Counted from the stretch's first letter, positions 970 through 29,020 are shown. The stretch is 33,596 nucleotides of DNA from a virus (IMGVR_UViG_3300044712_000614:1-33596), one strand, 5' to 3'. The notes: generated from the sequence alone by a model not told the origin. A program made the numbers and translations.

Positions 970-2991
970 CTACGGCGCAGGGCACGGCTGGAACGTGATG
1001 ACGTCCGTCCAATCGGACTCAACACCCACATTGATGGCCCACATTGACCTGGTCTTCACCTGGAATGTGTGCGAGGTGCCGTTATACTGCGACGCCGTTA
1101 TTACAGTCACCTGGGTCAGCTTCTCATCACCATAGGAATCAGACGCCAGCACTTGGCGCTTCTTTAAGGAGGTGGCAGCGGAGTCCAGCATGAACAGCTC
1201 CCGAGCCTTCATCTCGACGGCCGCGTCGGTCTTCGAGATGTCGGCGGGATCAAGCTTGATGCCGGCGATGAAGTTGCTCCCGCCACTCACATTGACCTTG
1301 CGGTAGATCTGCGTCAGGGGCTCCCGCTCTCCATCCGCAACACTGGTGTCCGGGATGATGCCATCCTCCTCCAAAGAGGACTCGGCGTCGATCGAGTCTC
1401 CGGTCTCACGGGCCTTCCATCGGATGGACGATACGCGTCCCCGGTTCGCCCGAAGTAGCTCGATGAGATCCGCCGGCCCCAGGTACTTGCATGGGCCGAA
1501 CGTGGCCGTGCTCCTGCCGGCATCGACATCCTCCTCGATGCTCACCACGAGCGCGCGCATGTTCTCCCACTCCGGGCGCCCGTCTGTGAGGTTGAGGAGA
1601 TTCCCCATATCCGGCTTGCCGTAGACGTCCTCGGCTACCGTCACGAACTGGCCATCGAACTGGAGAGGGTTGACCGAATTGTAGAGGGCCGCAGCGAGCC
1701 CCACCGGCACCGCTTCTCCAGAGGACGACTCGACGGTGTGCTTGTAAGTCCCCTTCTTGACGTTCGGATCGGGCGTATCGTCGGTCGGGTTCAGCTCGGT
1801 GGTGACGCATGAGTAGACGACGTATCGGTTCACCACCTGGGATACCTCCAGGCCGGATTCATCCTTCTCGTTCAGCGTGTAGGAGATGTACGCCCAGATG
1901 GTGTCCTTCTCGGCCCCGCCTGGCATCCAGGAGTGAACGGTGCCCTCGATCAGCTCGTTGGGATAATCGTGCATACCCTCTATGGCCGATCTCCCAGCAT
2001 CCGTGATGATGATCGTGGCCGGGTCAATCGAAAGATCGTTTAGCCAAACCAGCTTGCGCTTCCACCACGGGATCGCGGCGGCGTCCTCCAGGTCTGCAGG
2101 GATAGCCTCGACCTTGATCTCTTGGCTCTCCTGAATGATGCGACTGCCGGCGAGCTGCATAGTCATCACGACGGCCCCGAACTCGCGGCCCGTGGCGTCG
2201 ACGGGAAAGCGGTCGAGGGTGACGGACTGGTAGGATAGATCGTTGACCTGGTGCGTCTGCTCGTACTTCAGGATGACGGCCGGGATGCGGAGATCCTCCC
2301 GGCTCGTGATCGCGATGCGCTCGTTGGGTGCTCCCGCGTTCACGCTAGTGGAGACCGGCGTGAGGCTGGGCCGGCGGGCACAGTTGAACGTGGGGGGATT
2401 GGTGCTGTAGTCGAACCACGTGATGGCATCGGGACACCAGCGGAGAACCCGCCGGATCGCTTCGCCGCAGGTGATATCGACGGCCTCGTCCCAGGGGAAC
2501 TGGATGGAGGGCTCGATCGTGCCAATGGCGAGCGGCACACCAGCGTCCTGTGCAAACTGGAGGATTTCCTGAATCTGCCCCCCAGCCGTGAGCCGAGTGC
2601 CGGCGACGTTCTGTCCTAGGATCACCCGGCCCTTGTACTGAGGCGTAGCCTCTTCTTCCCCCGCATCCCATAGCATCCACTGCTGCTGGAAGATGAGGTT
2701 GTCGAGGTGCCACCAGGGGCCGGCGAACTTGTAGAGAATGGATTCGGCTTTTGGCGTGCCCTCGCGCGGAACCTGAATAACCCGGCCCACGAACCAGGGC
2801 GTGGTGTCCTTGAGGATCTCCACGGTCGATCCGTAGGCGAACACGGGAGGACCGTCAAAGGCGGCGCCATCCGCGAGACACGTCACGATATCCTGTTCCT
2901 GGCTGCGGCGAAGACGCGTGAGGGACCCGAGGCCCCAGGCCTCACAGGTCTTCGTCTGGCCGTCGTACCGAATGGACCACACGACGCTCAT
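970..2991 (-). CDS. Tail-tip / baseplate hub-like protein
   Basis: A 673-residue protein, the largest late product, immediately downstream of the tape measure gene with a TGATG overlap at 2989-2993. In long-tailed phages this position usually holds the distal tail or hub protein that caps the tube and carries fibres. The N-terminal half looks like a phage hub (WFVGRVIQV near residue 70, then long beta-rich stretches with WWHLDN and ITWFDYSTNPPTFN). The C-terminal 150 residues are strand-rich and may bind receptor or fibre. I see no peptidoglycan hydrolase motif. Assignment rests on size, position and general character, not a specific motif. Confidence 0.6.
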   Translation of the reverse strand: MSVVWSIRYDGQTKTCEAWGLGSLTRLRRSQEQDIVTCLADGAAFDGPPVFAYGSTVEILKDTTPWFVGRVIQVPREGTPKAESILYKFAGPWWHLDNLIFQQQWMLWDAGEEEATPQYKGRVILGQNVAGTRLTAGGQIQEILQFAQDAGVPLAIGTIEPSIQFPWDEAVDITCGEAIRRVLRWCPDAITWFDYSTNPPTFNCARRPSLTPVSTSVNAGAPNERIAITSREDLRIPAVILKYEQTHQVNDLSYQSVTLDRFPVDATGREFGAVVMTMQLAGSRIIQESQEIKVEAIPADLEDAAAIPWWKRKLVWLNDLSIDPATIIITDAGRSAIEGMHDYPNELIEGTVHSWMPGGAEKDTIWAYISYTLNEKDESGLEVSQVVNRYVVYSCVTTELNPTDDTPDPNVKKGTYKHTVESSSGEAVPVGLAAALYNSVNPLQFDGQFVTVAEDVYGKPDMGNLLNLTDGRPEWENMRALVVSIEEDVDAGRSTATFGPCKYLGPADLIELLRANRGRVSSIRWKARETGDSIDAESSLEEDGIIPDTSVADGEREPLTQIYRKVNVSGGSNFIAGIKLDPADISKTDAAVEMKARELFMLDSAATSLKKRQVLASDSYGDEKLTQVTVITASQYNGTSHTFQVKTRSMWAINVGVESDWTDVITFQPCPAP

Positions 2992-4274
2992 CAGTTCCTT
3001 GCCGCATTCTTAACCTGGTCTCGCAGGTCCTTTAGCTGGTCGGCCAGCTTGAGCACGATCGCCGCGATTTCCTTCAGGCTCGCCCCGGAAGTCTCAACAG
3101 CTGCTTCCAGGTTCTTCAGCTCGGCCTTGTCCTTTGAGGACATTAAGTGCCCAGCCTTTTCGCTGCGAAAGTTCTTCAGTCGTGCTTGTGCCTTCTGATA
3201 GTCGGTCTGAGCGTCAACCTGCGAATCAACAGCATCGCCAAACTCCATGACCTTGTCAGCGGCGGCATCACGAGTAGCCTCCTCACGCTCCTTCTTCAGG
3301 ATCGGCGTCTCTTTCGCTTTTCGCTCATAGACGATCGTATCCTTCTGCGCGCTCTGGACGCGCCGATTGCTTCGCTCCTGGGCGATCTGCTGATCGATCT
3401 CCTTCAGTTCTTTCTGAGCTTCCTTCAGCGCCTCTTTGTTCGCAGTCTCAGTTGCGGAGAGCTCAGCTCTCACCTGCTTTGCCATCGGCCCCTTATCGCC
3501 GGGAGTGGCTCCTTGAATGCGTTCAATGGCGGCCTTCCGTTTAGCCTCCAGCCCATCTACCTCGGCCTGCAAAGAGTCGATCTTGTCCTTGATCTTCTTC
3601 CGCGCCGGCTCCAGCTCCTGGAGATTCATCACGTTCTGCTCGATGTCGAGGCTCAGGTTTGACTGAGCCTTCTGCTTCTCTAGGTCAGCAATCTTGCGAT
3701 CCCGAGCAGGAGACTCCTTCTCTGTGCGCGTCTTCGCCAGTTCGCGGTCTATGATTGCATCGGCTTCCTGTTTCCTCATGGCGTAGATGCGGGAGAGATC
3801 TGCGAGGGTCTCCTTCAGGCGATCCTGGATTCCCTTAATCTCCTTCGCAAGGGCGTCGAGCTTGACCTTGTTGACCTTCTCGAACTCCTCCTTGGTCTTG
3901 ACGACGCCCTCAGCCGTATCGAAGGTGGTAGTCTTGAGATCTATCCATTCCCGGACAATCGTTCCAACCTTCCATCCGGCCAGGGCTGAGCCGACCACGG
4001 CGATGAGCGGGCCGATGCCGGCGAAGAGGCCTCGGATACTCTGGCCAATCTGCACGATGCCAGTCATGTCTCCCTTGAGGAGACGCATCGCCCCACTCAT
4101 CACACCCGTGGTGGCGGAGATCTTCCGGCCGGTCTGCTCAAAGGATTCGCCCGTATCAACGCCGGCCTTCTTGACGTCGGATGTGACCGTCTTCAGATCA
4201 CGCAGATCGTTGCCGGCGTCCTTGATGGAGCTGCCGGACTGCGTCTGCTTTACGTTGATCTCGAACTCGGACAT
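2991..4274 (-). CDS. Tail tape measure protein (short)
   Basis: A 427-residue protein. It has a hydrophobic, Gly-rich segment at about residues 83-107 (GLFAGIGPLIAVVGSALAGW). A long Lys/Glu/Ala/Gln-rich heptad region from about 130 to the C-terminus is strongly predicted to be coiled coil. The N-terminal part (INVKQTQSG...DLRDLKTVTSDVKKAG) is like other tape measures. At about 1.5 angstrom per residue it would set a tail near 64 nm, which is short for a siphovirus. It lies between the exported-protein cassette and the hub gene, so it is separated from the tail tube gene by about 5.6 kb. Confidence 0.75.
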   Translation of the reverse strand: MSEFEINVKQTQSGSSIKDAGNDLRDLKTVTSDVKKAGVDTGESFEQTGRKISATTGVMSGAMRLLKGDMTGIVQIGQSIRGLFAGIGPLIAVVGSALAGWKVGTIVREWIDLKTTTFDTAEGVVKTKEEFEKVNKVKLDALAKEIKGIQDRLKETLADLSRIYAMRKQEADAIIDRELAKTRTEKESPARDRKIADLEKQKAQSNLSLDIEQNVMNLQELEPARKKIKDKIDSLQAEVDGLEAKRKAAIERIQGATPGDKGPMAKQVRAELSATETANKEALKEAQKELKEIDQQIAQERSNRRVQSAQKDTIVYERKAKETPILKKEREEATRDAAADKVMEFGDAVDSQVDAQTDYQKAQARLKNFRSEKAGHLMSSKDKAELKNLEAAVETSGASLKEIAAIVLKLADQLKDLRDQVKNAARN

Positions 4275-4279
4275 GGCGG

Positions 4280-4720
4280 CTACTCGTTGCCGGAGCTGCT
4301 CTGATCGATCGTCAGGGGGCCGTTGACAGGGCCGATGATGATGGTGTTGTCGTCGCCCATGCTCCCGCTTGGAACGCCAACCGGCTTGGACTCACCATTG
4401 TCGCCAAAGAGGGCGTTGCCCGCTGCAGCGAGGCCGACGGCCGTCCCGATATCTGCCACCGTGGAGATGGTCATGGCACCGGGGTTATCCTTCCACGCCT
4501 GCCAGTAGCCGGTGAGACCGAGCACATCGAGCCCGAGGTTGATGCCCTGGCCGCCTGGCTGGGCCTGGGCCTGCAGCGCGTGCCGTTCCATGACGGCCCG
4601 GTCGTGGCGCGAGACGGTGTAAGCGGAGGCGCAGCCAGTAGCCCCACAGACGGCGAGGATGAACGCGGCCACGAGTGCGAGAGCTCCAACGATGCAGACG
4701 ATCCTACCGATGACTTTCAT
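4280..4720 (-). CDS. Small membrane or lipoprotein-like protein, unknown
   Basis: A 146-residue protein. The N-terminus is basic and then strongly hydrophobic (MKVIGRIVCIVGALALVAAF...), continuing to a Cys-containing LAVCGATGC segment around residues 22-30. That fits a signal anchor or a lipoprotein signal, though the lipobox is not clean. A second, weaker Gly/Ala-rich hydrophobic stretch lies near residues 85-105 (VADIGTAVGLAAAG). The C-terminus is polar (GPVNGPLTIDQSSSGNE). It is translationally coupled (ATGA) to the gene upstream. It could be a lysis component or a membrane-anchored tail-region protein; I cannot choose. Confidence 0.6.
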   Translation of the reverse strand: MKVIGRIVCIVGALALVAAFILAVCGATGCASAYTVSRHDRAVMERHALQAQAQPGGQGINLGLDVLGLTGYWQAWKDNPGAMTISTVADIGTAVGLAAAGNALFGDNGESKPVGVPSGSMGDDNTIIIGPVNGPLTIDQSSSGNE

Positions 4721-4905
4721 GTGCGTTTCCTTTCTTTGTGGTTGAGAAGCGCCTGAACGATCGCCAAAGCGCCAGCTATGGCGCTGGCAGGTGACGTGAC
4801 GCCTGATGCACCTGGACGAAGTGCCAGCTTTGGCTTGGGCAAATCAGATGGCCACAGGCTGTGGCTCAACTCGTCATGCCATTTCTGGAGCTTAGCGGAG
4901 GTCAC
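4717..4905 (-). CDS. Small protein of 62 residues, unknown
   Basis: Starts with GTG at 4905, overlapping the end of the upstream gene (TAA at 4892-4894), and ends in an ATGA overlap with the next gene. The sequence is basic and Pro-rich, with an Ala/Ile-rich helix (SAIAGALAIVQALL) and a basic tail (NHKERKRT). Tight coupling on both sides suggests it is real. The position just before the tape measure is where tail-assembly chaperones often sit, but no slippery sequence was found. Confidence 0.5.
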   Translation of the reverse strand: MTSAKLQKWHDELSHSLWPSDLPKPKLALRPGASGVTSPASAIAGALAIVQALLNHKERKRT

Positions 4906-5167
4906 GCAGCAAGGCCCTCGTCTTGGGATGGTTCCGGAGCTTCAGCAGAGCGCGGCGCTCAATATCGATGATCTGCTGGACCGATGGGATGTCCCGGACA
5001 ACACCCGTGATGAACATGAGCGCCGCGACTTCCGAATAGGGGCGAAGGGGCACGCCAGCTGGATCTCTGCGCTCACGCTGGCCACCGTCCACCACGTGGA
5101 CCATGTCGGGCATATCGTCAAACGTCGGCGTGGGAGTCAGAGAGTCGAGTGTGAGAGCGGCGTTCAT
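4892..5167 (-). CDS. Small late protein of 91 residues, unknown
   Basis: The start at 5167 is chosen because its ATG overlaps the TGA of the upstream gene (ATGA). The longer in-frame start at 5386 would lie wholly inside that gene. The N-terminus is Thr/Pro-rich (LDSLTPTPTFDDMPDMV) and the second half is helical and basic (QQIIDIERRALLKLRN). The family is not recognised. It belongs to the small-gene cluster ahead of the tape measure. Confidence 0.55.
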   Translation of the reverse strand: MNAALTLDSLTPTPTFDDMPDMVHVVDGGQRERRDPAGVPLRPYSEVAALMFITGVVRDIPSVQQIIDIERRALLKLRNHPKTRALLRDLR

Positions 5168-5904
5168 TGGATCTCCAGCACCCCCGAGGCTCCCCAGACC
5201 AGCGGATCGGAGACGGAACGAAGCACGAGGCGGAGCTGCTCCTCCGGGTAGGGCAATCCCGTGACCTGCCACGTCAGGGAGTTGGTGCCAACAACGCGAC
5301 TCGTGAACGTGGCAACAGGAGTGAACCCGACCGTGGGAGTGATGTACCCGATCTGAACCGAGTCGCCGGCTCCAGCCTGGACCCACTCCAGGTCGATGTA
5401 GGAGCCATGGGTGATCGTCTCGCCGGCGACCGGAGTGTGGATGAAGATGCCGGCGATCGTGAACGGTTCAATGGAGCGGCCGATCTGCTCGCCCTCCAGA
5501 TCCGTGACGCGGACGACGGCCCGCTCGGTGATGATGGTCTCGTCCCACCATGGCAACGAGTAGACGCACGAGGCCGCGCAGTTGGTGACGGGTAACCCGT
5601 AGGCGATGTACCGCGTGTAGTTGGAGCCGCCATCCACCGACAGCTGCAGGTGAACCCTCCTAGGGATCGGCGCGTACTCGCACGTGGGCCAGTCGGTGCG
5701 GTTAGTGAGAGCCGCAACGACCACCTCGTATTCGTTCCCGGCCGGGGCCGACGTGGTGAGCATGGGGCGAGGCTGCACAGCCACATGGAATGGCGCCTGC
5801 ACGGGCCTGACGGGAGTGTTGCAGCCTGGCAGAACAGCGATCAGCATGCCCAGCAATCCATGCACGCAGCCAAGAAGGAACGCGAACTGGAGTCGGTATC
5901 TCAT
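5164..5904 (-). CDS. Exported lipoprotein-like protein, beta-rich, unknown
   Basis: A 246-residue protein starting at 5904, where its ATG overlaps the upstream TGA. The first 28 residues look like a lipoprotein signal: a basic start (MRYR), a long hydrophobic core (FAFLLGCVHGLLGMLIAVL) and PGC as the likely lipidation site. The rest is rich in beta strands and Thr/Val with Cys pairs (NCAASCVYSLPWWDE), consistent with Ig-like or similar surface modules. A lipid-anchored protein inside a tail gene cluster is unexpected. Possible roles are superinfection exclusion or binding at the envelope. The gene is coupled at both ends by ATGA overlaps. Confidence 0.6.
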   Translation of the reverse strand: MRYRLQFAFLLGCVHGLLGMLIAVLPGCNTPVRPVQAPFHVAVQPRPMLTTSAPAGNEYEVVVAALTNRTDWPTCEYAPIPRRVHLQLSVDGGSNYTRYIAYGLPVTNCAASCVYSLPWWDETIITERAVVRVTDLEGEQIGRSIEPFTIAGIFIHTPVAGETITHGSYIDLEWVQAGAGDSVQIGYITPTVGFTPVATFTSRVVGTNSLTWQVTGLPYPEEQLRLVLRSVSDPLVWGASGVLEIQ

Positions 5905-7157
5905 GGCAGCAGGAGTCCCCCGACGAAGTGGAGCGCCTGCGTCGCACCGCCGGCCACGATGACGTTGATGTTGGTCGTCAGACCATTCGTTCCATGGGCC
6001 TGGTACGCGGAACTCACGTTGCAGTAGGAAAGCTCTGCGCCGTAGCCCGTGAATTTCCGTGAACCGTACAGCAGCCAGCCGTCGTCGTAGATCACCGCGA
6101 CCGTGTTGCTGTTGTGGGCATAGGCCCATCCGGACCCACCGGCGATCGACTTTCGGTACCAGCCATCCAGGGGCGCAGAATAGAACGTCATCGAGGGAGC
6201 CGCCGCCGCGCCATCGTAGGCGCGCACATTGCAGTTGAGATCATCCTCGTACAGCTGCAGGGACCCGTGGAGCATCGTGATACCGTTGGTGCTCACATAG
6301 CCCACCGCAACGCCGTCCACCACCCAGTAGAGTCGGTTCGTCGTCTGGATCTCGCCCTCGCCGACAAGCGGGAAGTGAACGGATACCGTGTGCTCGTCCA
6401 CCCGCTCGATCCGACCGACCGCCTCATCGATTCCCTTCTGCACATTGGTGACCGAGTTCGGCGTCAGGTCGCCAACGCGGGCCAGGTACAACGGGAAGTC
6501 GACCAGGTTCGCGGCCGATCCAGAGTAGGGAACGTCCGAGGTGATGCTGTGGACGTGCGCGGCGCCCGTGCCGTCGAAAAGCGTATCCAGCTCGGCCTGC
6601 AGGTCGTCGATCTGGAAGCTACTGAGAAACGGAGCCGACCCGATATTGCTGTGGTCGACCGTCGCCCAGTCGATCGACCGGACGGCATCCGGAGTTGCGC
6701 TCGTGGCCCCAGAGTTGGCGATGCTCTGCTGCAGGAGAAGATTGCCGTAGCTCCTCACCAGCATCGCGTCGGTCGACTGAACGGCAATTTCGTACACATA
6801 GGAGCTGTTCGTGGTCTCATTCGCCGTGCTCCACCGCACGTTGACAACGCCACCCGTGGCGACCGAGACCTGGCCCGTAATGACGTAGTAGGCTGTCAGG
6901 TTCGTGGATGTCGTGGGGCGGTACCGGAAGGTGACCAGGTGTGCGGATGACAGATCGATCGGCGCTCCGTAGTTCAGGTATATGGGCTCCAGGTTCACCG
7001 TCTCTCCTCGACGGATCAGCAGGTCCTGCTTCGCGAGCTTCTCGGTATTCACTTGCCACCGAAGCGTGGGGGCGATGTCGGCGGCGCGCGCGCAGGGGGC
7101 AGAGAGCATGGCGCAGAGGGCCGCAGAGAGGAACAGAACGGACGAAACGGATCTCAT
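5901..7157 (-). CDS. Exported fibre-like protein with Sec signal peptide
   Basis: A 418-residue protein preceded by AGGAGA at good spacing. Residues 1-25 form a clear signal peptide (MRSVSSVLFLSAALCAMLSAPCARA) with a probable cleavage after ARA. The mature part begins DIAPTLRWQVNTEKL. It is beta-rich with Thr/Asn-rich strands, contains FQIDDLQAELDTLFDGTGAAHVH like the linker or chaperone-like segments of tail fibres, and has a Trp/Tyr-rich C-terminus (WYRKSI, GWLLYGSRKF). A phage fibre would normally assemble in the cytoplasm, so the signal peptide is odd. It shares general style, but no obvious identity, with the non-exported fibre at 8807-9487 (both have LQLYED- or LQIYED-like segments). 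Confidence 0.65.
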   Translation of the reverse strand: MRSVSSVLFLSAALCAMLSAPCARAADIAPTLRWQVNTEKLAKQDLLIRRGETVNLEPIYLNYGAPIDLSSAHLVTFRYRPTTSTNLTAYYVITGQVSVATGGVVNVRWSTANETTNSSYVYEIAVQSTDAMLVRSYGNLLLQQSIANSGATSATPDAVRSIDWATVDHSNIGSAPFLSSFQIDDLQAELDTLFDGTGAAHVHSITSDVPYSGSAANLVDFPLYLARVGDLTPNSVTNVQKGIDEAVGRIERVDEHTVSVHFPLVGEGEIQTTNRLYWVVDGVAVGYVSTNGITMLHGSLQLYEDDLNCNVRAYDGAAAAPSMTFYSAPLDGWYRKSIAGGSGWAYAHNSNTVAVIYDDGWLLYGSRKFTGYGAELSYCNVSSAYQAHGTNGLTTNINVIVAGGATQALHFVGGLLLP

Positions 7158-7165
7158 GTTTTCTC

Positions 7166-7864
7166 CTATGGCTTGGCCACGACCGTTACAGTGCCCGTGT
7201 CGGCCGGATACGTGAAATCCTCCCAGTACCGGCCCGGAACAGTCCAGGGTGTCGTATAGCCGCCGTTGTAGTAGCCTTCATGGTAGGTGTTCGCTGCGGG
7301 ACCTCCAGAAATAGCCATCCATCCGTTGCCGGCCGTCCCCCATCGCAGTTGCCTTCCTGCCGCGTTTGTGAATCCAACATCGAACACATCGGGGAACGAT
7401 GCCTGGATGTAGATGCCGTTGCGGTTGGTGTCAGAGGCAAAGCCTGAGACCGAGTAAGCGTGGTTTGGCGTTACGGTGATCGAGCCTGATCCAGCGAATA
7501 TGGACCACCCGGAAGTGTGAGGCCACTTTCCGACGTCACTGTTGGCATTCAGGGTCGTCCAGGATGCCTCGTACAGCTGCCAGTAGGAGTTGGCCCCTCC
7601 CGCAATCTGATCGAGCTTGTAGATGCCGTTGGTGTATGTCGTTCCAGCGGCATTTGTGCTGGCAATTCTATACTCGCCGTTGGCGTTGGTCGGCGAGGTA
7701 AGACCGCTGACCGTATAGGACTCATAGGGCTGCGTCGTGGTGGTGGTCGTGGGTACGGACAGAACTCGGATCACCAGGCCTTGGGAGGAAATGGCGGCGA
7801 TCGCAGCGGAGGCCGCGATGCACAGGACAAGGACCAGGAGCAGACTATGGTTGCGTGTAGTCAA
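7166..7864 (-). CDS. Exported protein with two NG-Y repeat domains
   Basis: A 232-residue protein. The start is a TTG at 7862-7864, inside the 3' end of the upstream gene, whose TAG is at 7845-7847. No in-frame ATG precedes the hydrophobic core, and the TTG gives a sensible signal peptide (NHSLLLVLVLCIAASAAIAA). The mature part has two related domains: YTVSGLTSPTNANGEY near residue 45 and YSVSGFASDTNRNGIY near residue 140, each followed by TNAAG and a Trp-rich strand. The same pattern occurs in the protein at 523-960. These look like small beta-sandwich or carbohydrate-binding-like modules, but that is only inference. Confidence 0.6.
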   Translation of the reverse strand: MTTRNHSLLLVLVLCIAASAAIAAISSQGLVIRVLSVPTTTTTTQPYESYTVSGLTSPTNANGEYRIASTNAAGTTYTNGIYKLDQIAGGANSYWQLYEASWTTLNANSDVGKWPHTSGWSIFAGSGSITVTPNHAYSVSGFASDTNRNGIYIQASFPDVFDVGFTNAAGRQLRWGTAGNGWMAISGGPAANTYHEGYYNGGYTTPWTVPGRYWEDFTYPADTGTVTVVAKP

Positions 7865-8810
7865 TGGCGGGCATCCAGTTGGTGGCGGCTGTTATGTTCG
7901 TGGCGATCGTACCGACCCAGTACCCGGCCGGGACCGAGATCGAGAGGTTGACGTTCGTGGCGACGGTCGTGGTCACCAGGCCAGTGCCGGCGGTGACGTA
8001 GTTCCTGGCCGCGTTGGTGGCGTGGCGCAGGGCGATGTCGGCAATGACGCTGCCGGCTTCGGTGAGGCCGCGATAGGCTCTCAGCGTTCCCGCGCGGGCA
8101 AAGTAGAACCACACCATGTTCTGAGCGTTGGTCTGCGGCTGTGGGTCCGTGAAGCAGAGCGTGTTCGTGAGGGCAGCCTTCTCGAAGGTGTTCCAGACTG
8201 TGTTCGAGAGATTGCTGTCGGCCGCCTGGTAAAGGGCGAGGACGGCGTTGGATAGAGCGATATCGGCGGCCTGGTACAGCTGCACGAGCGCATTCGAGAG
8301 CGCGGCGTCGGCGTTCGTAGTGGAAAGGCCGTTACGCGCAGCGAAGTTCGTCGGGCTCACGACAACGCCATTGCTGTCTGCCTGGACGGGCCAGGAGGTG
8401 GCAGTCGCCGGAGATCCAGTTGGGGAGCCGGCCAGGGTCCAGAAGCTGGTGGAGGCGGCGGCCCAGGCAGTATTGGTGCCGGCGGACAGGTACCAGCGGT
8501 AGTAGTAGAGCTGCGATGCGGTGAGGCCGGTGATGTTGGTGGAGACCGCTCCGGTGGCCACGCCGCTGATGAGGCCGTTGGTGCTGGCCCAGCTGGCGGC
8601 GTTGCTGCCGCCGTCGCTGGTGCCGTAGTAGAGCCGCAGGTAGGTCGTGTTCGTTCCGCCGTTCGTCGAGACCACGTTACCGCACAGCCAGGCGGCCGTG
8701 CGGGTGATGCCGGTGGCGGAGGCGCAGTCCACTTGCAGCGCGGCGGCAGACTTCTGCCACGGACCCACGCAGACGCACACGGACAGCAGAAGACAGATCA
8801 GGCGCTTCAT
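7845..8810 (-). CDS. Exported protein with fibronectin-like domain and heptad region
   Basis: A 321-residue protein. The start at 8810 is fixed by an ATGA overlap. Residues 1-24 form a signal peptide (MKRLICLLLSVCVCVG...KSAAA). It is followed by a fibronectin-III-like domain (ITRTAAWLCGNV, YLRLYYGTSDGG, LTASQLYYYRWYLSAG, then a strand with SFWTLAG), a pattern I associate with secreted proteins of PVC bacteria. Next comes a short repeat, ALSNALVQLYQAAD / ALSNAVLALYQAAD / NLSNTVW, which looks like a coiled-coil or fibre shaft. Such a shaft suggests a trimeric fibre, again with an export signal. Confidence 0.65.
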   Translation of the reverse strand: MKRLICLLLSVCVCVGPWQKSAAALQVDCASATGITRTAAWLCGNVVSTNGGTNTTYLRLYYGTSDGGSNAASWASTNGLISGVATGAVSTNITGLTASQLYYYRWYLSAGTNTAWAAASTSFWTLAGSPTGSPATATSWPVQADSNGVVVSPTNFAARNGLSTTNADAALSNALVQLYQAADIALSNAVLALYQAADSNLSNTVWNTFEKAALTNTLCFTDPQPQTNAQNMVWFYFARAGTLRAYRGLTEAGSVIADIALRHATNAARNYVTAGTGLVTTTVATNVNLSISVPAGYWVGTIATNITAATNWMPAIDYTQP

Positions 8811-9487
8811 AGTTCCTCCCCTGGGCCGAGGGTTAGGACGGCTGCGCCGTCGCGGATCTCGGCGATCTCCGGGTACCAGCGATCGGTGGATTGGATGTAG
8901 TGGTACCAGCGGCCGTTGTGCCAGCGCGCCCACGCCTGGTCTTCGTGCTTCTGGACGTAGCGGGCATCGGCTTCCTGCTGGGTGTAGATCGTCTGACCCT
9001 GGGGCATGGTCGTGGGGACGGCTCCAACGCCATCCTCGTAGATCTGCAACGTGGTGCAGCCCGGTGTCACGTCGCGCCCTGGGGAATCGTTGGTCACATA
9101 CGAGATCGCCACCCAGAAGACCTTGTTCGTATCGGGAGCCACAGCGGGGCTCATCTCGGCATTGGTGAAGTACACCAGGGCATGCTGATGCGTCCTTGCG
9201 GCCCACTGATCCGAAGTGAGGGCGCCGTTGAGGTCCGCCGCGAGAACGGTCTTGGCGACCAGCACGTTCGCCGACGCCGTGGGGCCATCCAGGATCGTGA
9301 CGGTGAGCGAGGCGATGTTGGAGATGTCGGTGATGATCGCATTCGAGACGCCAATCGCGATCTCGAACTGGATGTCGTTGCCGCGCCAGGACGCAGGGGT
9401 GCCGCCGGTGAAGATGTCCTTGAGGGCTGTTCCGGGAGCAATGGCCGCGTCGGCCAGGATGCGAATGCGTCTTCGTCCCAGTATCAT
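8807..9487 (-). CDS. Tail fibre-like protein, cytoplasmic
   Basis: A 226-residue protein without a signal peptide. The N-terminal half is beta-rich (FEIAIGVSNAIITDISNIASL). Around residue 170 it has YTQQEADARYVQKHED, very close to the 'tkaeaDarYvqk' linker that recurs in tail fibres and tip proteins. The C-terminus is Trp/Tyr/His-rich (ARWHNGRWYHYIQSTDRWY). It is coupled by ATGA overlaps to the tail gene upstream and the exported protein downstream, so it marks the switch from tail tube to the fibre/exported cassette. Confidence 0.65.
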   Translation of the reverse strand: MILGRRRIRILADAAIAPGTALKDIFTGGTPASWRGNDIQFEIAIGVSNAIITDISNIASLTVTILDGPTASANVLVAKTVLAADLNGALTSDQWAARTHQHALVYFTNAEMSPAVAPDTNKVFWVAISYVTNDSPGRDVTPGCTTLQIYEDGVGAVPTTMPQGQTIYTQQEADARYVQKHEDQAWARWHNGRWYHYIQSTDRWYPEIAEIRDGAAVLTLGPGEEL

Positions 9488-9882
9488 GATGGCCTCTCCT
9501 TCAGGATCTTCCCGCCAGTGATCGTGTAATCGAGCAGCACCGTGACGCCGAGCAGGCGCGGATTGCAGGCATGCACGACCGCATCCTTGAGATATCGCTC
9601 GACCTCCTTCGTAGGGCTCTTTGCCGTGATAGTCACCAGGCCGCGCGCGAGCGTCTCCTCGGCGTGCTCCAGGTAGAAGACCTGCGCGTCCGCCAGATCC
9701 TCGAACAGGTGAGACCGGGTGAATGTGATCACGGTCTTGCGGTTCTTCCGATCATAGTTGTCCTGGGACGCGGCGCGGAGGTGTGGGGCCTCCTGCAGCG
9801 CGATGCCAAAGTTGCCTCGGATGTCGATCGGGCCATCCCGGTCGTCCCCGGCCAGAACCGTGTTGTCGAGCTTGATGATCAT
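9484..9882 (-). CDS. Tail-region protein of 132 residues, unknown
   Basis: The start at 9882 overlaps the TGA of the tail-tube gene (ATGA). A much longer upstream extension in this frame is only a shadow of the tail-tube gene. The protein starts MIIKLDNTVLAGDDRDGPI and has mixed helix and strand (THLFEDLADAQ-type helix, ITAKSPTKEVERYLKDAVV). It ends with strands (LLGVTVLLDYTITGG) and a basic tail. It is a candidate tail-completion or assembly protein by position only. Confidence 0.6.
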   Translation of the reverse strand: MIIKLDNTVLAGDDRDGPIDIRGNFGIALQEAPHLRAASQDNYDRKNRKTVITFTRSHLFEDLADAQVFYLEHAEETLARGLVTITAKSPTKEVERYLKDAVVHACNPRLLGVTVLLDYTITGGKILKERPS

Positions 9883-10844
9883 GCCGCATTCACTTCGAGC
9901 TTGAAGAGATCCACGAGCGCGCCGGCGTTGAGAGTCCGGAGCGTCTTGAACTCCAGATCCGGAACCCGGTCGCCGATGGCATAGGCGTGCTGAGCGGCCT
10001 GCAGGGTGCAGCCGTAGATCGTGGCCTTCGGGTTGCTTGCGCCGCCCGTGATGACCAGCGTCTGGGCCTTGTCCAGGATGGAGACGCCGCGCGCCACGCC
10101 GGTCCCCTGCAGCTTCATGAGGCCGTGCAGATCCGCGACCTTGATGCCGATGGGCTTGCACTTGGCCGATACGGAGGCGTTGCCATTGTAGATCCAGTCG
10201 AAGATGCCGATGTCGTCGACGATCTGTGGATCGAGCCCCACGTCGAAGCTCAGCACCCAGCCGTCCTTCGTCTGGATCGCGTTCCAAGGGGCGCTGAGCG
10301 CGCCCAGGGCGGCGCTGTAGGGCACCGTGAGGATGTTGGCCAGGGTGAGGGAGGTGTCGGTGAAGGCGGCGTCGGCCAGGGCGAATAGATGCGACGCGTT
10401 GCTCCAGGCCTGGTTGTCGGTGCCGATGCAGGTGAGCGTGACCTGGCCCATCACCGTCTTGACGGAGGATAGGAGAATGTCCGGCATCTTCGAGACGAAC
10501 CCGCTCGAATAGGTGAGCTTCTCCTTGCCGTTGAGGGGCCACACGACAACGCTCTTGTCGGTGCTGGGCATGGCCGATGCACCGGGCGTGCAGGCGGTGT
10601 GCGGATAGAGCACCTCGAAGACGCTCGCGGGCGTGGTGCCCTCGATCTCGCCGGCCGGGGTGAAGGTGATCTCGGTGATGATCTGCTGGATGCGCTCATC
10701 CAGCTTGCCGCGCCCAGACACGACGATGTCGAAGAGGTCGTAGCGGGTCGCGATCTTGATCTCGTCCTTGATCCAGAACGTGACGCCGTTGAAGGTCACG
10801 ATGGCGGGGCCGCGAAGGATAGTTGCGTCTGTTCTGCTGAGCAT
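9879..10844 (-). CDS. Major tail tube protein (probable)
   Basis: A 321-residue protein preceded by AGGGAG. It is beta-rich with a segment (FTPAGEIEGTTPASVFEVLYPHT) that fits the tail-tube fold of B3-like and other siphoviruses. It also has strands around WVLSFDVGLDPQIVDDIGIFDWIYNG. It lies directly downstream of the head-tail connector genes, where the tube gene belongs. No contractile sheath gene is present next to it, which supports a non-contractile tail. The exact family is not proven. Confidence 0.6.
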   Translation of the reverse strand: MLSRTDATILRGPAIVTFNGVTFWIKDEIKIATRYDLFDIVVSGRGKLDERIQQIITEITFTPAGEIEGTTPASVFEVLYPHTACTPGASAMPSTDKSVVVWPLNGKEKLTYSSGFVSKMPDILLSSVKTVMGQVTLTCIGTDNQAWSNASHLFALADAAFTDTSLTLANILTVPYSAALGALSAPWNAIQTKDGWVLSFDVGLDPQIVDDIGIFDWIYNGNASVSAKCKPIGIKVADLHGLMKLQGTGVARGVSILDKAQTLVITGGASNPKATIYGCTLQAAQHAYAIGDRVPDLEFKTLRTLNAGALVDLFKLEVNAA

Positions 10845-14154: not shown

Positions 14155-15156
14155 CTAGCTGATGTTGAGACGCCGGGCGCTGCCGGTGCTGACGATGTTG
14201 GAGTAGTGGGCGACGCTGATCTCGATCAGCTTGGCGCTGAGTTCGCGCCGGTAGACTTGGAACTGTCCGCCGGTCGTGGTGATGAACCGCTTCAGGGAGG
14301 ACGGGTCCTCCATGACGGGGCTCGACGTGCGGTGGAACGCGATGGCGTAGGCGCCCAGCATGCGCGTCTTGTCGCCCGTGCCCGTGCCGTACCGCTCGCC
14401 GAACTTGCGCAGGCCCTGCTCCAGCCCGAGCCACTCGCTCAGCAGCTGGGGAGTCCACATCGAGCTCGCGAACCCGCCGGCCTTGTCGGTCGACCGCAGG
14501 TTCTGCACGCGATAGGTCCAGCCCGTTGACCCGATCGCCAACGCGTTGGCGTTCAGGCCGGTCGTCGTCCCGACCGCCTCGCACAGGTCGAGGAGATCGA
14601 TGTCCGGATCGCTGACGGGGGCGGTGATCCACTTGACGGCCGTGCCGGCGTGCAGCGCGAGGAGCGCCGTGACCGCGCGGCGGAGGTCGTTGCGCATGAT
14701 CCGGTTCTTGAGCCAGCCGGCGTAGAGCTGTTCCCAGTTGGGAATCTCGCCGACGACATCAAGGTCGCCCACGAAGGCGAGACCCTTGTTGATCGTGCGC
14801 GCGCTTTCGAGCTCGCCCTTGAACTCCACGATCTTGAAGTTCGTGCCCGGCGCCCGAGCGTCATCGGTCTCGCTCAGGAACTGCTGGACGTTGCCGAACT
14901 TGCGGAACTCGAACCGCCGGCCGGCCGGCACTCCGGGGGCGATGAAGTCCAGGGCTTCCTGGATCTTGTCCGCGTCGGTCATGCCGCCCACGAACGCCGT
15001 GAGAGGCTGGCTCATGAACGAGTTGTTGAACGACTGCTCGTTCGCGGCACAGATGATACCCTTGCCAGGGTTGGCGCCGTAGAAGACGGGCGCGAGTTCG
15101 AGAACCTGATGGCCGGCCGCATTCGCGGCGGCGATGAGTCTGCTGTCGATCTGCAT
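14155..15156 (-). CDS. T: Major capsid protein (Mu gpT-like)
   Basis: A 333-residue protein preceded by AGGGAG. Its length and position, after the protease/scaffold and decoration genes, fit the major capsid of B3/Mu-like phages. The N-terminus (MQIDSRLIAAANAAGHQVLELAP) is like other Mu-like capsids, and the central E-loop-like region contains FEFRKFGNVQQFL. The 3' UTR carries a strong hairpin. No single signature motif proves the call. Confidence 0.7.
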   Translation of the reverse strand: MQIDSRLIAAANAAGHQVLELAPVFYGANPGKGIICAANEQSFNNSFMSQPLTAFVGGMTDADKIQEALDFIAPGVPAGRRFEFRKFGNVQQFLSETDDARAPGTNFKIVEFKGELESARTINKGLAFVGDLDVVGEIPNWEQLYAGWLKNRIMRNDLRRAVTALLALHAGTAVKWITAPVSDPDIDLLDLCEAVGTTTGLNANALAIGSTGWTYRVQNLRSTDKAGGFASSMWTPQLLSEWLGLEQGLRKFGERYGTGTGDKTRMLGAYAIAFHRTSSPVMEDPSSLKRFITTTGGQFQVYRRELSAKLIEISVAHYSNIVSTGSARRLNIS

Positions 15157-15223: not shown

Positions 15224-15691
15224 TTACGTCACGACGATCTTGACCGGCGAGCACGGGGCCATCTCGACCTCGTCGTCATTCGCATCGGCGGCGGTGATGG
15301 CCGTCCCGACGATGTAGTACGTGCCGCCCGCCACGGGCAGCGTCTTGACCTTCTCGCCATCCGCGATGAGGATGGCGTTCACGGCGATCGCGGCCGACGC
15401 GATCACACGAACCGTGGTGTCGGCGCCGCCCAGGGCCTGGACCCCGACTTCATAGCCATCGAGTTCGGTGGCCATGGAGACGCCGATCGGCACGCCGTCG
15501 TTTGCCGCGACGGTGCCGGCGGCCGAGAGCTTCACCAGCTTGTGCAGGTTTACGGTGCCCGAGGCCGTGGCTGTGAACCTGCCTCCTTGATGGGTCCCGA
15601 CGTTGGTGATCGCGTTGATCGCGGCCACGAGTTTCCGCCCGGAGGCGAGAATGATCGCCAGACGGGCACGCAGTGCGCGCAGCTTGTTCAT
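15224..15691 (-). CDS. Capsid decoration protein (DUF2190-like)
   Basis: A 155-residue protein with AAGGAC upstream. A basic N-terminal helix (MNKLRALRARLAIILASGRKL) is followed by a small beta domain: LHKLVKLSAAGTVAANDGVPIGVSM, VGVQALGGADTTVRVIASAAI and ILIADGEKVKTLPVAGG. The 'VkLs..G.v......iGv......' pattern is that of DUF2190-type decoration proteins found between the protease and capsid genes. The N-terminal hydrophobic-basic helix is longer than usual. Confidence 0.65.
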   Translation of the reverse strand: MNKLRALRARLAIILASGRKLVAAINAITNVGTHQGGRFTATASGTVNLHKLVKLSAAGTVAANDGVPIGVSMATELDGYEVGVQALGGADTTVRVIASAAIAVNAILIADGEKVKTLPVAGGTYYIVGTAITAADANDDEVEMAPCSPVKIVVT

Positions 15692-17001: not shown

Positions 17002-17787
17002 TCACGCCGCGTCCTCCTCGACGAGCGTGATGGTCCAGAAGTCGGCGGAGAGATCGGAGTTCACCAGATACTTGAATGGCATGTAGAAGTAGCCCTTGTC
17101 GCCCCAGGCCTCGCCCCAGGAGTTGCGAACGATGAACTGCAGGCTCTGGGAGTCGTAGCCGACAGCCATCACTGCATGGCCGCCCAGGAGCCGCTCCCCA
17201 GGGCCGGGCATGGGGACGACGCCGGCCTTCGCCACCGACTGAGTCTCGAAGGACTCGTAGACACTGAACCCGAAGACGAAGGGATGCCCGGCGGCAAGGC
17301 AGACCTGGAAGTCGGTGATGGTCTGGCGCAGCCGCTGGTACTTGAGCACCTGGTGGTCGAGCGCGTGACGGTAGCACTTGATCGAGGGCTTGCGCGTGAA
17401 GCGCGAGGTCACGTAGGGCCATTCGGATTCCGGGCACACTCCCTGCCGAACGACGCTCTTGATGCCGTCGCGGAGCATGGCGCCGGAGTCCTGGTCGACC
17501 GTGCCTTCGATCTTGCGCTCGTTCCAGTAGATGAACAGGCGGGACGGGACGAAGGATTCCGCCACAGACCCACGCAGACAGCCACGGACCTGCTCGAACT
17601 GGTGCGCAGCGCCGATGGCGTTCGCCGTGCAGCTTCCCAGCTCCCCCTGGTTGTAGACGGCCGGACACTGGGCGCGGAGATCCACCTTGGGGGGAAGCTG
17701 GAGCGGATCATAGCCTCTGGGCGTCCAGAGGTAGTAGAGATCGCGGTGATCGGGTAGATCCGGGACCCATCCGTAGCGGCGGCTCAT
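17002..17787 (-). CDS. Papain-like (C1A) cysteine peptidase
   Basis: A 261-residue protein with AAGGGG upstream of the ATG at 17787. All papain landmarks are visible: the oxyanion Gln and nucleophile Cys in YNQGELGSCTANAIGAAHQF (Q47, C53), the His in GGHAVMAVGYD (H204) and the Asn in VRNSWGEAWGDKGYFYMP (N222). There is no signal peptide and little room for a pro-region (about 34 residues before the PPKVDLR start of the mature-like domain). It lies between DUF1353 and the prohead protease. Possible roles are lysis, head maturation or cleavage of a host or surface protein. It is expected to be an active peptidase because all active-site residues are present. Confidence 0.85.
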   Translation of the reverse strand: MSRRYGWVPDLPDHRDLYYLWTPRGYDPLQLPPKVDLRAQCPAVYNQGELGSCTANAIGAAHQFEQVRGCLRGSVAESFVPSRLFIYWNERKIEGTVDQDSGAMLRDGIKSVVRQGVCPESEWPYVTSRFTRKPSIKCYRHALDHQVLKYQRLRQTITDFQVCLAAGHPFVFGFSVYESFETQSVAKAGVVPMPGPGERLLGGHAVMAVGYDSQSLQFIVRNSWGEAWGDKGYFYMPFKYLVNSDLSADFWTITLVEEDAA

Positions 17788-18140
17788 CGAATTTCCCCTT
17801 TCTTGGAGGCCTTGCGAGATTTGCCCCTGCAAATCGACGCTATGCCCTTGCAAACCGTTTCGGGGTCGCCGCGTCGGGTGTCCGGACGCGTTTCCGGCCG
17901 GCCCGTTGTAGGGCATCGTGGGGGCTCGGCGCTGGCAGCGCCGGCCAAGGGGCAAGTGTCATGGGGCAAGGGGGCGGAATTGAGGCCCTGCAGCCCCTGG
18001 ATGGCGGCCTGCTGGTCGTTGATCTGGCGGCGGCACTCCTGGGCGTCGAAGTGATGCCCCTCCTGGACGTGCTCCTTCTCCTGGATCTCGCGCAGGTGAA
18101 TGCGCTCGGCCAGGCAGTTGATGGCGGTCTGGTACTTCAT
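17784..18140 (-). CDS. Small coiled-coil protein with basic Pro-rich tail, unknown
   Basis: A 118-residue protein coupled by ATGA overlap to the peptidase downstream and by a short overlap to DUF1353 upstream. The first 50 residues are helical and charged (ERIHLREIQEKEHVQEG, CRRQINDQQAAIQGLQGL). The rest is Pro/Arg-rich and probably disordered, ending in a basic SRKASKKGEIR. It might be an accessory or inhibitor of the peptidase; there is no direct evidence. Confidence 0.45.
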   Translation of the reverse strand: MKYQTAINCLAERIHLREIQEKEHVQEGHHFDAQECRRQINDQQAAIQGLQGLNSAPLPHDTCPLAGAASAEPPRCPTTGRPETRPDTRRGDPETVCKGIASICRGKSRKASKKGEIR

Positions 18141-18604
18141 GCGAACACGGCTCTCTGGGTTGGGGGTCTGGGCTTAACGTCGCGCTTCCATGAGAACCAA
18201 CCGAACATCCGAACGGCGCGGTACATGAGCCAGGCACTCGACGGGCGGCATCCGACGTAGATCATGATCTCGTAGAAGAGCGCATCGGCCTCGGCCCTGT
18301 CGCAGAGACTGAAGTCGATGTAGTGCTCCGCGTACACTCGATCGTGGAACAACGCGGCGATGCCGTAAGGATTTCCCGTGAGGCCAGCCGGAGGGAATAC
18401 GCGCCAGAGGAACCGGGGGATCGAGGCGAAGTCAAACTCGAAGCCGCCCAGCACTCGGCAAAGTCGGCCCGTGAACCGGCCGCGCGACACGCGATAGGAG
18501 ATGGAACGCGCCACCCTCCATTTCCGGCCGTCGATGTACTCAACCATAAGAGGCAGGCCCTCGAAGCGGTCATCACGATCAGCGATGAGGCAGGCGGAAT
18601 TCAT
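18137..18604 (-). CDS. DUF1353 family protein
   Basis: A 155-residue protein with start 18604, where its ATG overlaps the portal TGA. Signature segments are present: FEFDFASIPRFLWRVFPPAG, then YGIAALFHDRVYAEHY, then a helix with CDRAEADALFYEIMIYVG. These match DUF1353, a family common in tailed phages and often found near lysis or head genes, with no proven function. The conserved HD pair and the Asp in 'RAEAD' suggest metal binding. Confidence 0.75.
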   Translation of the reverse strand: MNSACLIADRDDRFEGLPLMVEYIDGRKWRVARSISYRVSRGRFTGRLCRVLGGFEFDFASIPRFLWRVFPPAGLTGNPYGIAALFHDRVYAEHYIDFSLCDRAEADALFYEIMIYVGCRPSSAWLMYRAVRMFGWFSWKRDVKPRPPTQRAVFA

Positions 18605-20199
18605 GCGGTTGCCTCCGAGAGCTTCGCTTCGTTCTGCTGGAGCGCATTGACGACGCACGTGCCGAGCATGCCTTCGCCGATCTTGGCGAGCCGGGCGATG
18701 TTCTCCTGGGTGAGCAGCTGCGGAGGCATCTCCTTGATGGCTGCCTCCACAAGGTCGATGTACTCCGACTGCGTGGCCCGTTCAGGCAGCGATGCTTCCA
18801 GATCCGCAAGCCACTTCTCGAACATCCGAGCGCGGCCCTTCAGGGTTTCATCGATGGCCTCTTGCACGAGATCGTTGCGGATCTCCTCCGCGCGCGCGGC
18901 CTGACCTACGGACGCGAGATCCTGTCTGGTGATGAGCGAGTTCGCAGCACGCACAGCCGGCAGTACCCCAGGCGACATGGGCGCCGGCGGGACGAGAACG
19001 GTCTGGCCCGGCTGCGGCAGTGTGCGCTGGTAGCGTTGGGCAAGGTCCTCCTGGGTGAAGGGGAAGTTGCGCTCGGCCAGGAATCGATCGACCTCGATGT
19101 CGGCTTTGACATCCGACTTCGCGCTGGTCTTCCACTCGACCCATGCGAGCGGCTCCTCGTCGAAGCGGTACCGGATGACCGGGAGCACAACGTACTCGTT
19201 GAGCGCCTCGGAGATCATCATCCCGTCGTCCTGTTCCAGAATGACGGACTCCGTGCCCTGCACGGTGACGCCGCTCTGATTCGGGCCGCCGGCGGAATCG
19301 GTCATGAGGTTGCCGCCGCGCCACAGAACCGTGATGGCCTTGACCATCGCCTCGTACATCTGCGGCCAGGGGAGCGTGCCCTTGAGCGCCATCTCGATCG
19401 GGTTGATGCTGACGCCGTCGCCCGTGACCATCTTGAGATCGAAGCTGAAGTTGTCCACGGCGTCTTCGAGCGTGCGCCATTCGTCGCTGTCGGGAGAGGC
19501 ATTGGTCTTGCCGTGGATGCCTGGCCCGACGCGGCCGTTGTAGATGGCCCAGTCGGTGAGGGCCATGCGCTTGAGGAGGTACAGGACCGACGTGGCCGCC
19601 ATGAGCCCGTCGCCTCGCGTGATGAGCCAACCATCGGGCTCCAGGGGGACGCCCTCGATCGCCAGATCCTGGGGAAGGTACCGCAGATTCCCGGTCGTGC
19701 GTTCGAACCACCACAGCGGCATGGCGGTTGTCTGGAGCGTGAGCCCTTCCGGCCTGGGTTGCCACACGATCTCATGCACCTGCCACTGGAACCCGATGGC
19801 CCGCATCATCTGCCGGGCGAGCGTGGTAGTTCCGCCCTTGTTCGATGGATCGAGCACGTCGGCCGCAGTCAGGTTGTCCAGGGCAAACGTGATGGCATCG
19901 ATGTGCCGGCGCACGGCCGGGCTATCCGGCTTCTGGCCCGGAGCGGCGACGACCTTGTACCCGTAGCGGGGCACGGCCTTATGGCGCTTGTTGCAGTCCG
20001 CGCCAACGCGATCGTCGCGCCACTGGATGGCGTGCCACAGGAGGGCCGTCTCGCGAAGGTAGCCACGGGTGAAGCTGTCGAGATACGAGGAGAGGTTCTC
20101 GGGCGTGAGCTGTGGGATCGGGTTGGGCGCGAAGCGGATCGCGTCGGTAACGCGGGCGGAACTGACGGCCGTGGACTTGGTCTTGCGGGGCTTGCTCAT
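18601..20199 (-). CDS. Portal protein (Mu gp29 / DUF935)
   Basis: A 532-residue protein with the ATG at 20199 overlapping the terminase TGA. It has DUF935 landmarks: ETALLWHAIQWRDDRV near residue 55, VHEIVWQPRPEG near 140, LMAATSVLYLLKRMALTDWAIYNGRVGPG in the middle and the C-terminal ITRQDLASVGQAARAEEI. Portal proteins form the dodecameric ring at the head vertex through which DNA enters and leaves. Order (small terminase, large terminase, portal) is as in Mu. Confidence 0.85.
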   Translation of the reverse strand: MSKPRKTKSTAVSSARVTDAIRFAPNPIPQLTPENLSSYLDSFTRGYLRETALLWHAIQWRDDRVGADCNKRHKAVPRYGYKVVAAPGQKPDSPAVRRHIDAITFALDNLTAADVLDPSNKGGTTTLARQMMRAIGFQWQVHEIVWQPRPEGLTLQTTAMPLWWFERTTGNLRYLPQDLAIEGVPLEPDGWLITRGDGLMAATSVLYLLKRMALTDWAIYNGRVGPGIHGKTNASPDSDEWRTLEDAVDNFSFDLKMVTGDGVSINPIEMALKGTLPWPQMYEAMVKAITVLWRGGNLMTDSAGGPNQSGVTVQGTESVILEQDDGMMISEALNEYVVLPVIRYRFDEEPLAWVEWKTSAKSDVKADIEVDRFLAERNFPFTQEDLAQRYQRTLPQPGQTVLVPPAPMSPGVLPAVRAANSLITRQDLASVGQAARAEEIRNDLVQEAIDETLKGRARMFEKWLADLEASLPERATQSEYIDLVEAAIKEMPPQLLTQENIARLAKIGEGMLGTCVVNALQQNEAKLSEATA

Positions 20200-27922: not shown

Positions 27923-29020
27923 ATGGCGGACGAAGGCGTGACGGTCGTAGAGGGGCAGGAGCGGCTGGAGGATGTGGAGCGCGAGTGCTCCGGCACCAAC
28001 CAGATCAACATCGGCGGGAACACGGTGACGAAGGCCACCGAGCACCTGCCCGAGCAACAGAAGATCCTCATCCGGTGGGCGTACCAGGTGGCGCGCGACA
28101 AGGGAATGTCGTGGGCCGATCTGGAGAAGGCGAGCGGGATCTCGCAGACGACCTGGTACCGGATCTGGCACGACAAGTACATCAACTCGGCTACGGGGGG
28201 GCGGGTCTCCCTGTCGAGCATCATCCAGAAGGTGGAGAAGTGGAAGCACCTCTACGAGGCGCGCGCGCACATCAACGATGAGCTGTTCGTGGAGACGAGC
28301 GTGTGGGAGCGGATCGACTGGATCTGCCAGAAGGTTCGCATCCGCCGGAAGATCGGGATGATCTACGGCGAGAGCCACTGCGGCAAGAGCGAGTGCCTGA
28401 AGCGGGTGCAGCGGCTCAACAACCACGGCGCGACGACCTACGTCGAGATGCCTCCCTCGGGCGGCGTGCAGCTGATGACGCGGACCATTGCCAAGGCCCT
28501 GCACGTCGCCAGCAGCACGTGCTACGAGCACCTGATCGAGGACGTCATGGAGGCCCTGGACGACTCGAAGCTGCTCATTATCGATGAGGTCCACCGCGTC
28601 TTCACGACCTACCAGCGCACCTCGGTGATGCGCTGCCTCGACGTGCTGCGCTACATCCACGACCAGACGCACTGCGGGATGGTCCTTTGCGGGACGAACG
28701 CGTTCCGGGATGAGCTCCAGGAGGGCACGTTCTGGCAGTACCTGAAGCAGCTGCGCCGGCGCGGGCTCTACGAGATCCAGCTGCCGGACGTGCCGCCGCG
28801 CGCAGACCTGGATCTGATCGCAAAGCACTACGGCCTCCCGCCTGCCTCGGGCGAGGCCGAGCAGACGATGCTGCAGAGCGTGAAGAATAACGGCCTGGCC
28901 GTCTACTTCACGCGGCTCGACGACGCCGTCGAGATGGCCGCCAAGGCCAAGGCCACGCTGACCTGGACCCACTTCGAGAAGGCCGTCGCCTACACCGAGA
29001 AGATGAAGGCGGTTCGGTAG
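27923..29020 (+). CDS. B: MuB-type AAA ATPase (target selector)
   Basis: A 365-residue protein with GAGGAGG upstream. The N-terminal HTH region (MSWADLEKASGISQTTWYRIW, residues 62-82) is followed by the AAA core: Walker A GESHCGKS (149-156), Walker B KLLIIDEVHR (216-225) and a sensor-1 strand GMVLCGTNAF. MuB-type ATPases bind target DNA, pick integration sites and activate the transposase. It is longer than Mu B (312). The gene follows A at a 18-base gap, as in other Mu-like phages. Confidence 0.85.
   Translation: MADEGVTVVEGQERLEDVERECSGTNQINIGGNTVTKATEHLPEQQKILIRWAYQVARDKGMSWADLEKASGISQTTWYRIWHDKYINSATGGRVSLSSIIQKVEKWKHLYEARAHINDELFVETSVWERIDWICQKVRIRRKIGMIYGESHCGKSECLKRVQRLNNHGATTYVEMPPSGGVQLMTRTIAKALHVASSTCYEHLIEDVMEALDDSKLLIIDEVHRVFTTYQRTSVMRCLDVLRYIHDQTHCGMVLCGTNAFRDELQEGTFWQYLKQLRRRGLYEIQLPDVPPRADLDLIAKHYGLPPASGEAEQTMLQSVKNNGLAVYFTRLDDAVEMAAKAKATLTWTHFEKAVAYTEKMKAVR

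Follow-up and report, generated by a model that had tools for sequence, protein, structure and literature searches.

Predicted export signals on tail-fibre-type proteins in a lineage of Mu-like siphophages of Verrucomicrobiota

The virus IMGVR_UViG_3300044712_000614 is a single virus record of 33,596 bases, the whole of which we call the window. Within its tail gene cluster, five successive minus-strand genes (starts at 8810, 7864, 7157, 5904 and 4720) encode proteins with predicted signals for the general secretory (Sec) pathway or for lipoproteins, and a sixth such gene starts at 14059 beside the capsid gene (Table 1). The protein starting at 7157 (SP3) combines a Sec signal with a predicted baseplate docking domain, and related proteins of the same lineage carry tail-fibre domains. 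Export signals on tail-fibre proteins suggest that completion or use of these parts takes place outside the cytoplasm. The standard teaching is that tailed phages assemble entirely in the cytoplasm until the cell lyses, and a family-wide Sec signal ahead of a baseplate docking domain would, if the proteins do join virions, break this rule. By its sequence the lineage is one of Mu-like siphophages, whose relatives are proviruses of Verrucomicrobiota.

We re-read the open reading frames (ORFs) and starts of the six proteins; in each, the N-terminus is basic and is followed by a hydrophobic core and a site of AXA or lipobox type. Signals were called with a home-made rule built on these features, not with SignalP or LipoP, and its error rate is that of the controls, which were 49 Mu-like IMG/VR loci from outside the clade, scored over their late regions under one fixed rule throughout. 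Signals were called in 17 of 675 control late genes (2.5%) versus 80 of 452 in this clade (17.7%; Fisher P 4e-19) and, within the clade, in 31 of 34 proteins of the 7157 family versus 12 of 280 in other structural families (Fisher P 1e-29), two P values that overstate the certainty because related loci are not independent. Several of the 17 control calls are clear false positives, for example protease- or capsid-type genes. An artefact of start-codon choice or of overlapping frames in high-GC DNA is scarcely credible: the TTG start at 7864 and the home-made rule would allow for it, but the 8810 and 7157 starts are preceded by good ribosome sites, the relative described below has the same starts, and a pattern repeated in dozens of loci against the low control rate largely refutes it by conservation.

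All six signals recur at the same places in IMGVR_UViG_3300044712_001454 (G001), the one near relative that the IMG/VR searches gave, which has an identical gene order and mostly 70-90% protein-level likeness. The signals of the 8810, 7157 and 5904 proteins are identical to those of the relative at 9/22, 9/26 and 7/19 aligned residues (about 35-41%, with gaps), whereas the remainders of these proteins are 89, 88 and 91% identical. The signals have thus drifted while the mature parts were conserved, so that the nature of the segment and not its sequence has been preserved. The 7864 protein has the opposite pattern, with a signal identical at 20/24 residues and a mature part that is 49% identical. 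Furthermore, the signal DNA of the window 7157 gene matches the signal DNA of two other cassette genes in the relative, and in provirus L288 (L denotes a locus here and below) two neighbouring genes have the common signal MKKLIALLILPFSLFA (16/16 residues) in front of unrelated mature proteins. The signals thereby appear to behave as exchangeable modules, with signal and mature parts diverging independently. Cleavage is a prediction from sequence, and the hydrophobic N-termini could instead stay uncleaved in virion proteins as anchors for assembly or to the membrane, without a role in export. We consider this very improbable, as AXA or lipobox sites lie directly ahead of the domain, the sequence drifts fast while the signal character stays, signals are swapped between unrelated proteins, and five homologues of the 7157 protein manage without one. 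Based on the re-read starts, the relative and the controls, the export signals of these six proteins, of which the original prediction had called 4720 a membrane protein, are real, and Sec export and processing of the cassette proteins are very likely.

Iterated profiles detected 24 members of the 7157 family in provirus loci and 14 (11 distinct) in IMG/VR; the genomes are metagenome-derived and their gene starts were called automatically. In this first set 33 of the 34 distinct N-termini carry a signal, including those of L243 and L244, where the rule gave hydrophobic N-termini that by eye we took for signals. The remaining one, L249, is fused to the tube frame at a contig edge, and its signal status is unclear. 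Another 15 loci came from a second search of genomes, ten with a signal and five closely related ones without (L287 and L289-L292), which brings the family to 49 sampled loci, 43 with a signal, five clearly with none and one unclear. The family had no match in the sampled 199 Planctomycetota, 178 Bacteroidota and 190 Pseudomonadota genomes (phyla assigned from the centre genomes of the samples), although such empty results are weak evidence. In L287, L289 and L292 the gene after the signal-free docking-domain gene has a signal-like start, which makes these loci a natural comparison for the role of the signal.

The 7157 protein was modelled by AlphaFold with 13 sequences, and the predicted local distance difference test score (pLDDT) is about 71-90 over residues ~28-145. 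This domain begins directly after the predicted cleavage site. It matches BppU of TP901-1, 80alpha, NF5 and Bas63 connector domains with Z scores of 11-12.6 in VIA-align (11.0-12.6 for the structures 4v96, 6v8i, 9m8o, 3uh8 and 9mt4) and a root-mean-square deviation of 2.3-3.3 Å over 107-119 residues, compared with a Z of about 7 for unrelated immunoglobulin folds. A Foldseek match (E 2e-6) and many BppU or baseplate matches in BFVD agree with this, and the mature N-terminus of the 7157 protein is, by its model, a BppU-type baseplate docking domain with a beta-sandwich fold. The BppU_N family (Pfam: PF10651) does not match the window 7157 protein; one signal-bearing relative matches it with E 1e-4.

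We surveyed the domains of 79 signal-bearing proteins of relatives with Pfam and PHROGs. Pfam found Collar (E 2e-19) and phage tail repeat (PTR; E 2e-33) domains as well as Phage_tail_C, tail-tip, tail-fibre repeat (Phage_fiber_2), Gly-rich and collagen domains, and the PHROGs matches are mostly tail-fibre families. Going by this domain content, at least some of the exported proteins belong to tail fibres. The window cassette proteins themselves have no usable match in Pfam or PHROGs, and no tail-fibre domains were found in them by hidden Markov models. The fibronectin-like architecture suggested in the original prediction likewise found no Pfam match in the window proteins, and the fibronectin type III reading of the 8810 protein is by eye only. 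The homologue of the 8810 protein in provirus L192 is a 1288-amino-acid fibre with a signal, and the signal of the 8810 protein is retained in three homologues. The L192 C-terminus has a C1q-like reading, by eye only; a sequence search of the PDB with this fibre and an L241 protein gave no match. Two signal-bearing cassette proteins (L241 7126-9126 and L227 6969-8324) have GGDSGSP near the C-terminus, which recalls, again only by eye, trypsin-like serine proteases.

We give an even chance to the reading that tail-fibre proteins are made as Sec pre-proteins and docked on virions after export, alongside exclusion-type lipoproteins. Docking on virions is favoured because a conserved docking domain lies at the new N-terminus. 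In this scheme the tail-fibre proteins and the small capsid-adjacent protein would be made as Sec pre-proteins, cross the inner membrane and lose their signals, and the mature fibre proteins would take their fold and form oligomers in the periplasm. Once the inner membrane is opened by lysis, the fibre proteins would dock onto the virions assembled in the cytoplasm, and the last step of tail maturation would then be extracytoplasmic. The lipoproteins from the cassette end would remain in the envelope and probably shield receptors like T5 Llp. The wider claim, that virions are finished outside the cytoplasm with both fibres and a capsid-adjacent decoration exported by Sec, processed in the periplasm and docked during or after lysis, is put forward tentatively, at slightly less than an even chance. 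If true, fibres would gain periplasmic folding, disulfides or glycosylation, and natural secreted receptor-binding proteins would be on offer.

Several points weigh against docking on virions after export. Only the N-terminal domain of the 7157 protein is well modelled, with pLDDT <50 at the C-terminus. For SP1, SP2 and the capsid-adjacent protein no fold is supported, and the model of the last has a mean pLDDT of 55 and is predicted mostly beta with low confidence. The window has a fibre-like gene without a signal, g9487; none of the 12 members of its family has a credible signal, and a profile comparison of this family with the 7157 family gave a short match of low probability. In the five signal-free loci the docking domain can do without export. 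The domain itself therefore seems not to need export, which suggests that export is a trait gained in addition and serves a purpose of its own. Moreover, we know of no precedent among tailed phages for export before virion attachment, and in the open-access literature searched we found no described signal peptide on their tail fibres.

The main rival is receptor blocking, which we regard as possible but doubtful. The exported fibre proteins would never join virions and would, free or bound to the envelope, occupy receptors both on the infected or lysogenic cell and on its debris. We are similarly hesitant about the corresponding function, namely that together with Llp-like lipoproteins they would exclude superinfection and prevent readsorption. 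Lipoproteins are indeed encoded in the same cassette, and at the five loci with a signal-free docking-domain fibre the next gene is in some cases signal-bearing. In T5 the llp gene adjoins the receptor-binding gene and its product jams the receptor; purified pb5 also blocks T5 infection (PMC9586334). In the window the 5904 gene comes directly after 7157, so here too a lipoprotein gene adjoins a candidate receptor-binding gene, and its lipoprotein-type N-terminus is kept in the homologues of the window, G001 and L222. Other cassettes end in small lipoproteins, with smaller ones in L202 and L224. The 5904 and 4720 proteins may work like T5 Llp, although the lipobox of the 4720 protein is imperfect, and the 5904 product is much larger than Llp and Cor (246 amino acids against below about 100) and has no sequence link to them, which leaves its exclusion role putative. 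A pure blocker would have no need of a conserved N-terminal baseplate docking domain, and few candidates for virion fibres would be left at loci that have no signal-free fibre-like gene from tube to hub. Secreted receptor blockers would still be a new exclusion strategy. Of the functions offered in the original prediction, virion parts acquired during exit fit the 7157 family best, given the docking fold at its mature N-terminus and the tail-fibre domains of its relatives, whereas an envelope or exclusion role appears to fit the lipoproteins 5904 and 4720 better.

The known systems differ from this arrangement in several ways. In TP901-1, receptor-binding proteins are held to the Dit ring by domains of the BppU type, whose fold T5 p132 shares (PMC7291167). 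The upper baseplate proteins (TP901-1 ORF48, 80alpha, T5 p132) share with the 7157 family an N-terminal beta-sandwich docking domain followed by variable fibre-like parts. To our knowledge no known BppU-type member has a signal peptide, whereas 43 of the 49 loci here have a Sec signal ahead of the domain. The pVIII and pIII proteins of filamentous phages are virion proteins with signal peptides that are added outside the cytoplasm. The likeness lies in signal-bearing virion proteins, here putative ones; filamentous phages belong to another virus realm, are secreted without lysis and have no kinship to this lineage in sequence or assembly. Lambda Lom and the Cor proteins of HK022, phi80 and N15 are exported morons encoded beside the tail-tip gene. 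They resemble the cassette proteins as exported products of the tail region, but are single moron genes and not fibres with a baseplate docking domain.

Provirus and virus loci were oriented on the tube gene and their genes listed from capsid to hub. Cassettes with several signal-bearing genes are found in L202, L222, L224, L227, L244, L245, L247, L248 and others, positioned between the tail-completion and tape-measure genes. The L192 cassette has a single signal-bearing gene, the homologue of 8810, and in another sublineage (L234, L236 and L238) the 7157 homologue follows the hub. In L244, L245, L247 and L248 a g9487-type gene is absent, which leaves signal-bearing proteins as the chief candidates for fibres. 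With the same places in the relative and several provirus loci, the cassette proposed in the original prediction is a coherent, recurring one. Its interval, 4280-9487, does hold the five signal genes, but also g9487 and two small ORFs without signals. Another explanation, that the proteins are surface adhesins or other lysogenic-conversion proteins which serve the host cell and are parked in a late operon, is improbable: the signal peptides and the lectin-, collagen- or protease-like C-termini of relatives would be in keeping with it, but divergent phages keep these genes at one place in the tail module, and the baseplate docking fold and the recognised phage tail domains also speak against it. 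No convincing signal was found in the tail genes of L200, L201, L203 and L204, which at a guess are contractile-tail-like.

A small signal-bearing gene between the capsid and adaptor genes is present in at least 14 loci (the window, its relative, L192, L196, L222, L223, L224, L228, L239, L244, L245, L246, L247 and L248). The L245 case has no basic residue ahead of the core and was counted by eye. In some relatives, decoration-type genes (L195, L206 and L207; homologues of window 15224-15691) have signal-like N-termini.

Table 1. Features of the window discussed in the text.
Feature	Coordinates	Strand	Description
Tail hub/tip-like protein	970..2991	-	Homologues in 27 loci
Tape measure-like protein	2991..4274	-	Assigned by position
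Lipoprotein-like/membrane protein	4720-4280	-	ATG; hydrophobic N-terminus ending GATGC; cassette end, before tape measure gene
62-amino-acid ORF in cassette	4717..4905	-	No signal; 84% identical in relative
91-amino-acid ORF in cassette	4892..5167 (28430-28705 on reverse complement)	-	No signal; present in relative
SP4	5904-5164	-	ATG; predicted lipoprotein signal MRYRLQFAFLLGCVHGLLGMLIAVLPG followed by C, lipobox LPG then C; 246 amino acids; candidate exclusion lipoprotein
SP3	7157-5901	-	ATG, upstream GGAG; predicted Sec signal MRSVSSVLFLSAALCAMLSAPCARA; BppU-type docking domain ~28-145 (model); variable C-terminus
SP2	7864-7166	-	TTG start, overlaps preceding stop; predicted Sec signal MTTRNHSLLLVLVLCIAASAAIA and beta-rich protein
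SP1	8810-7845	-	ATG, upstream GGGGAGGAACT; predicted Sec signal MKRLICLLLSVCVCVGPWQKSAAA and fibre-like protein
g9487	8807..9487	-	Directly after tail-completion gene; lacks a signal peptide and so serves as contrast within the cassette; C-terminus fibre-like (YTQQEADARYV)
Tail tube protein	9879..10844	-	Function from position and original prediction; common to 39 loci
Small exported protein (predicted)	14059-13667	-	ATG; signal MFRKLISATLAVVIVASVSIAPKAKA; between major capsid and head-tail adaptor-like genes
Major capsid protein	14155..15156	-	PHROG 1005 major head protein, E 7e-4; homologues in proviruses
Mu-type portal	18601..20199	-	Pfam PF06074, E 4e-45; served to find relatives

The window phage is Mu-like judging by its Mu-type portal and its B-type ATPase, which matches AAA_22/TniB in Pfam and corresponds to Mu-type transposition gene B; the window transposase has no match in Pfam. 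Portal homologues with 27-43% identity were found in 19 of 388 Verrucomicrobiota genomes and in none of 246 Planctomycetota genomes. The tail-tube profile matches 28 of 346 genomes from one Verrucomicrobiota class, and that this class is Kiritimatiellia is only a guess. The original prediction is supported in the co-occurrence with Mu-like heads and in a host of the Planctomycetes-Verrucomicrobia-Chlamydiae type, which agrees with the Verrucomicrobiota proviruses. Among 50,697 phage records there was no tblastn match to the 7157 protein, its IMG/VR relative, the tail tube or the terminase, so the tested tail-fibre, tube and terminase genes of the lineage have no match in this annotated collection of phages. 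A scan of genome contigs with the terminase also gave no match.

Five loci on Verrucomicrobiota chromosomes (L193, L195, L197, L198 and L199) are compact modules with a terminase C-terminus-like gene, portal, protease, decoration, capsid and adaptor, and also encode a protein of 600-1000 amino acids that opens with a g9487-type domain. Tube, tape measure and hub were not found in them by blastp. They are possibly tail-less, capsid-forming satellites or domesticated heads.

After the hub gene, 523-960 encodes a Cys-rich protein (DCCCPEE) without a signal, whose repeat resembles by eye that of the exported 7864 protein. A papain-type C1 protease (17002-17790; Pfam: PF00112, E 2e-15) has homologues that are 55-62% identical in metagenome-assembled genomes of many phyla and 42-50% identical in two jumbo phages. 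In L020 a homologue of the neighbouring window gene 18137-18658 directly adjoins the protease homologue, possibly as a mobile gene pair. The end of the early region encodes a D12-class adenine methyltransferase (32416-33312; Pfam: PF02086, E 2e-25).

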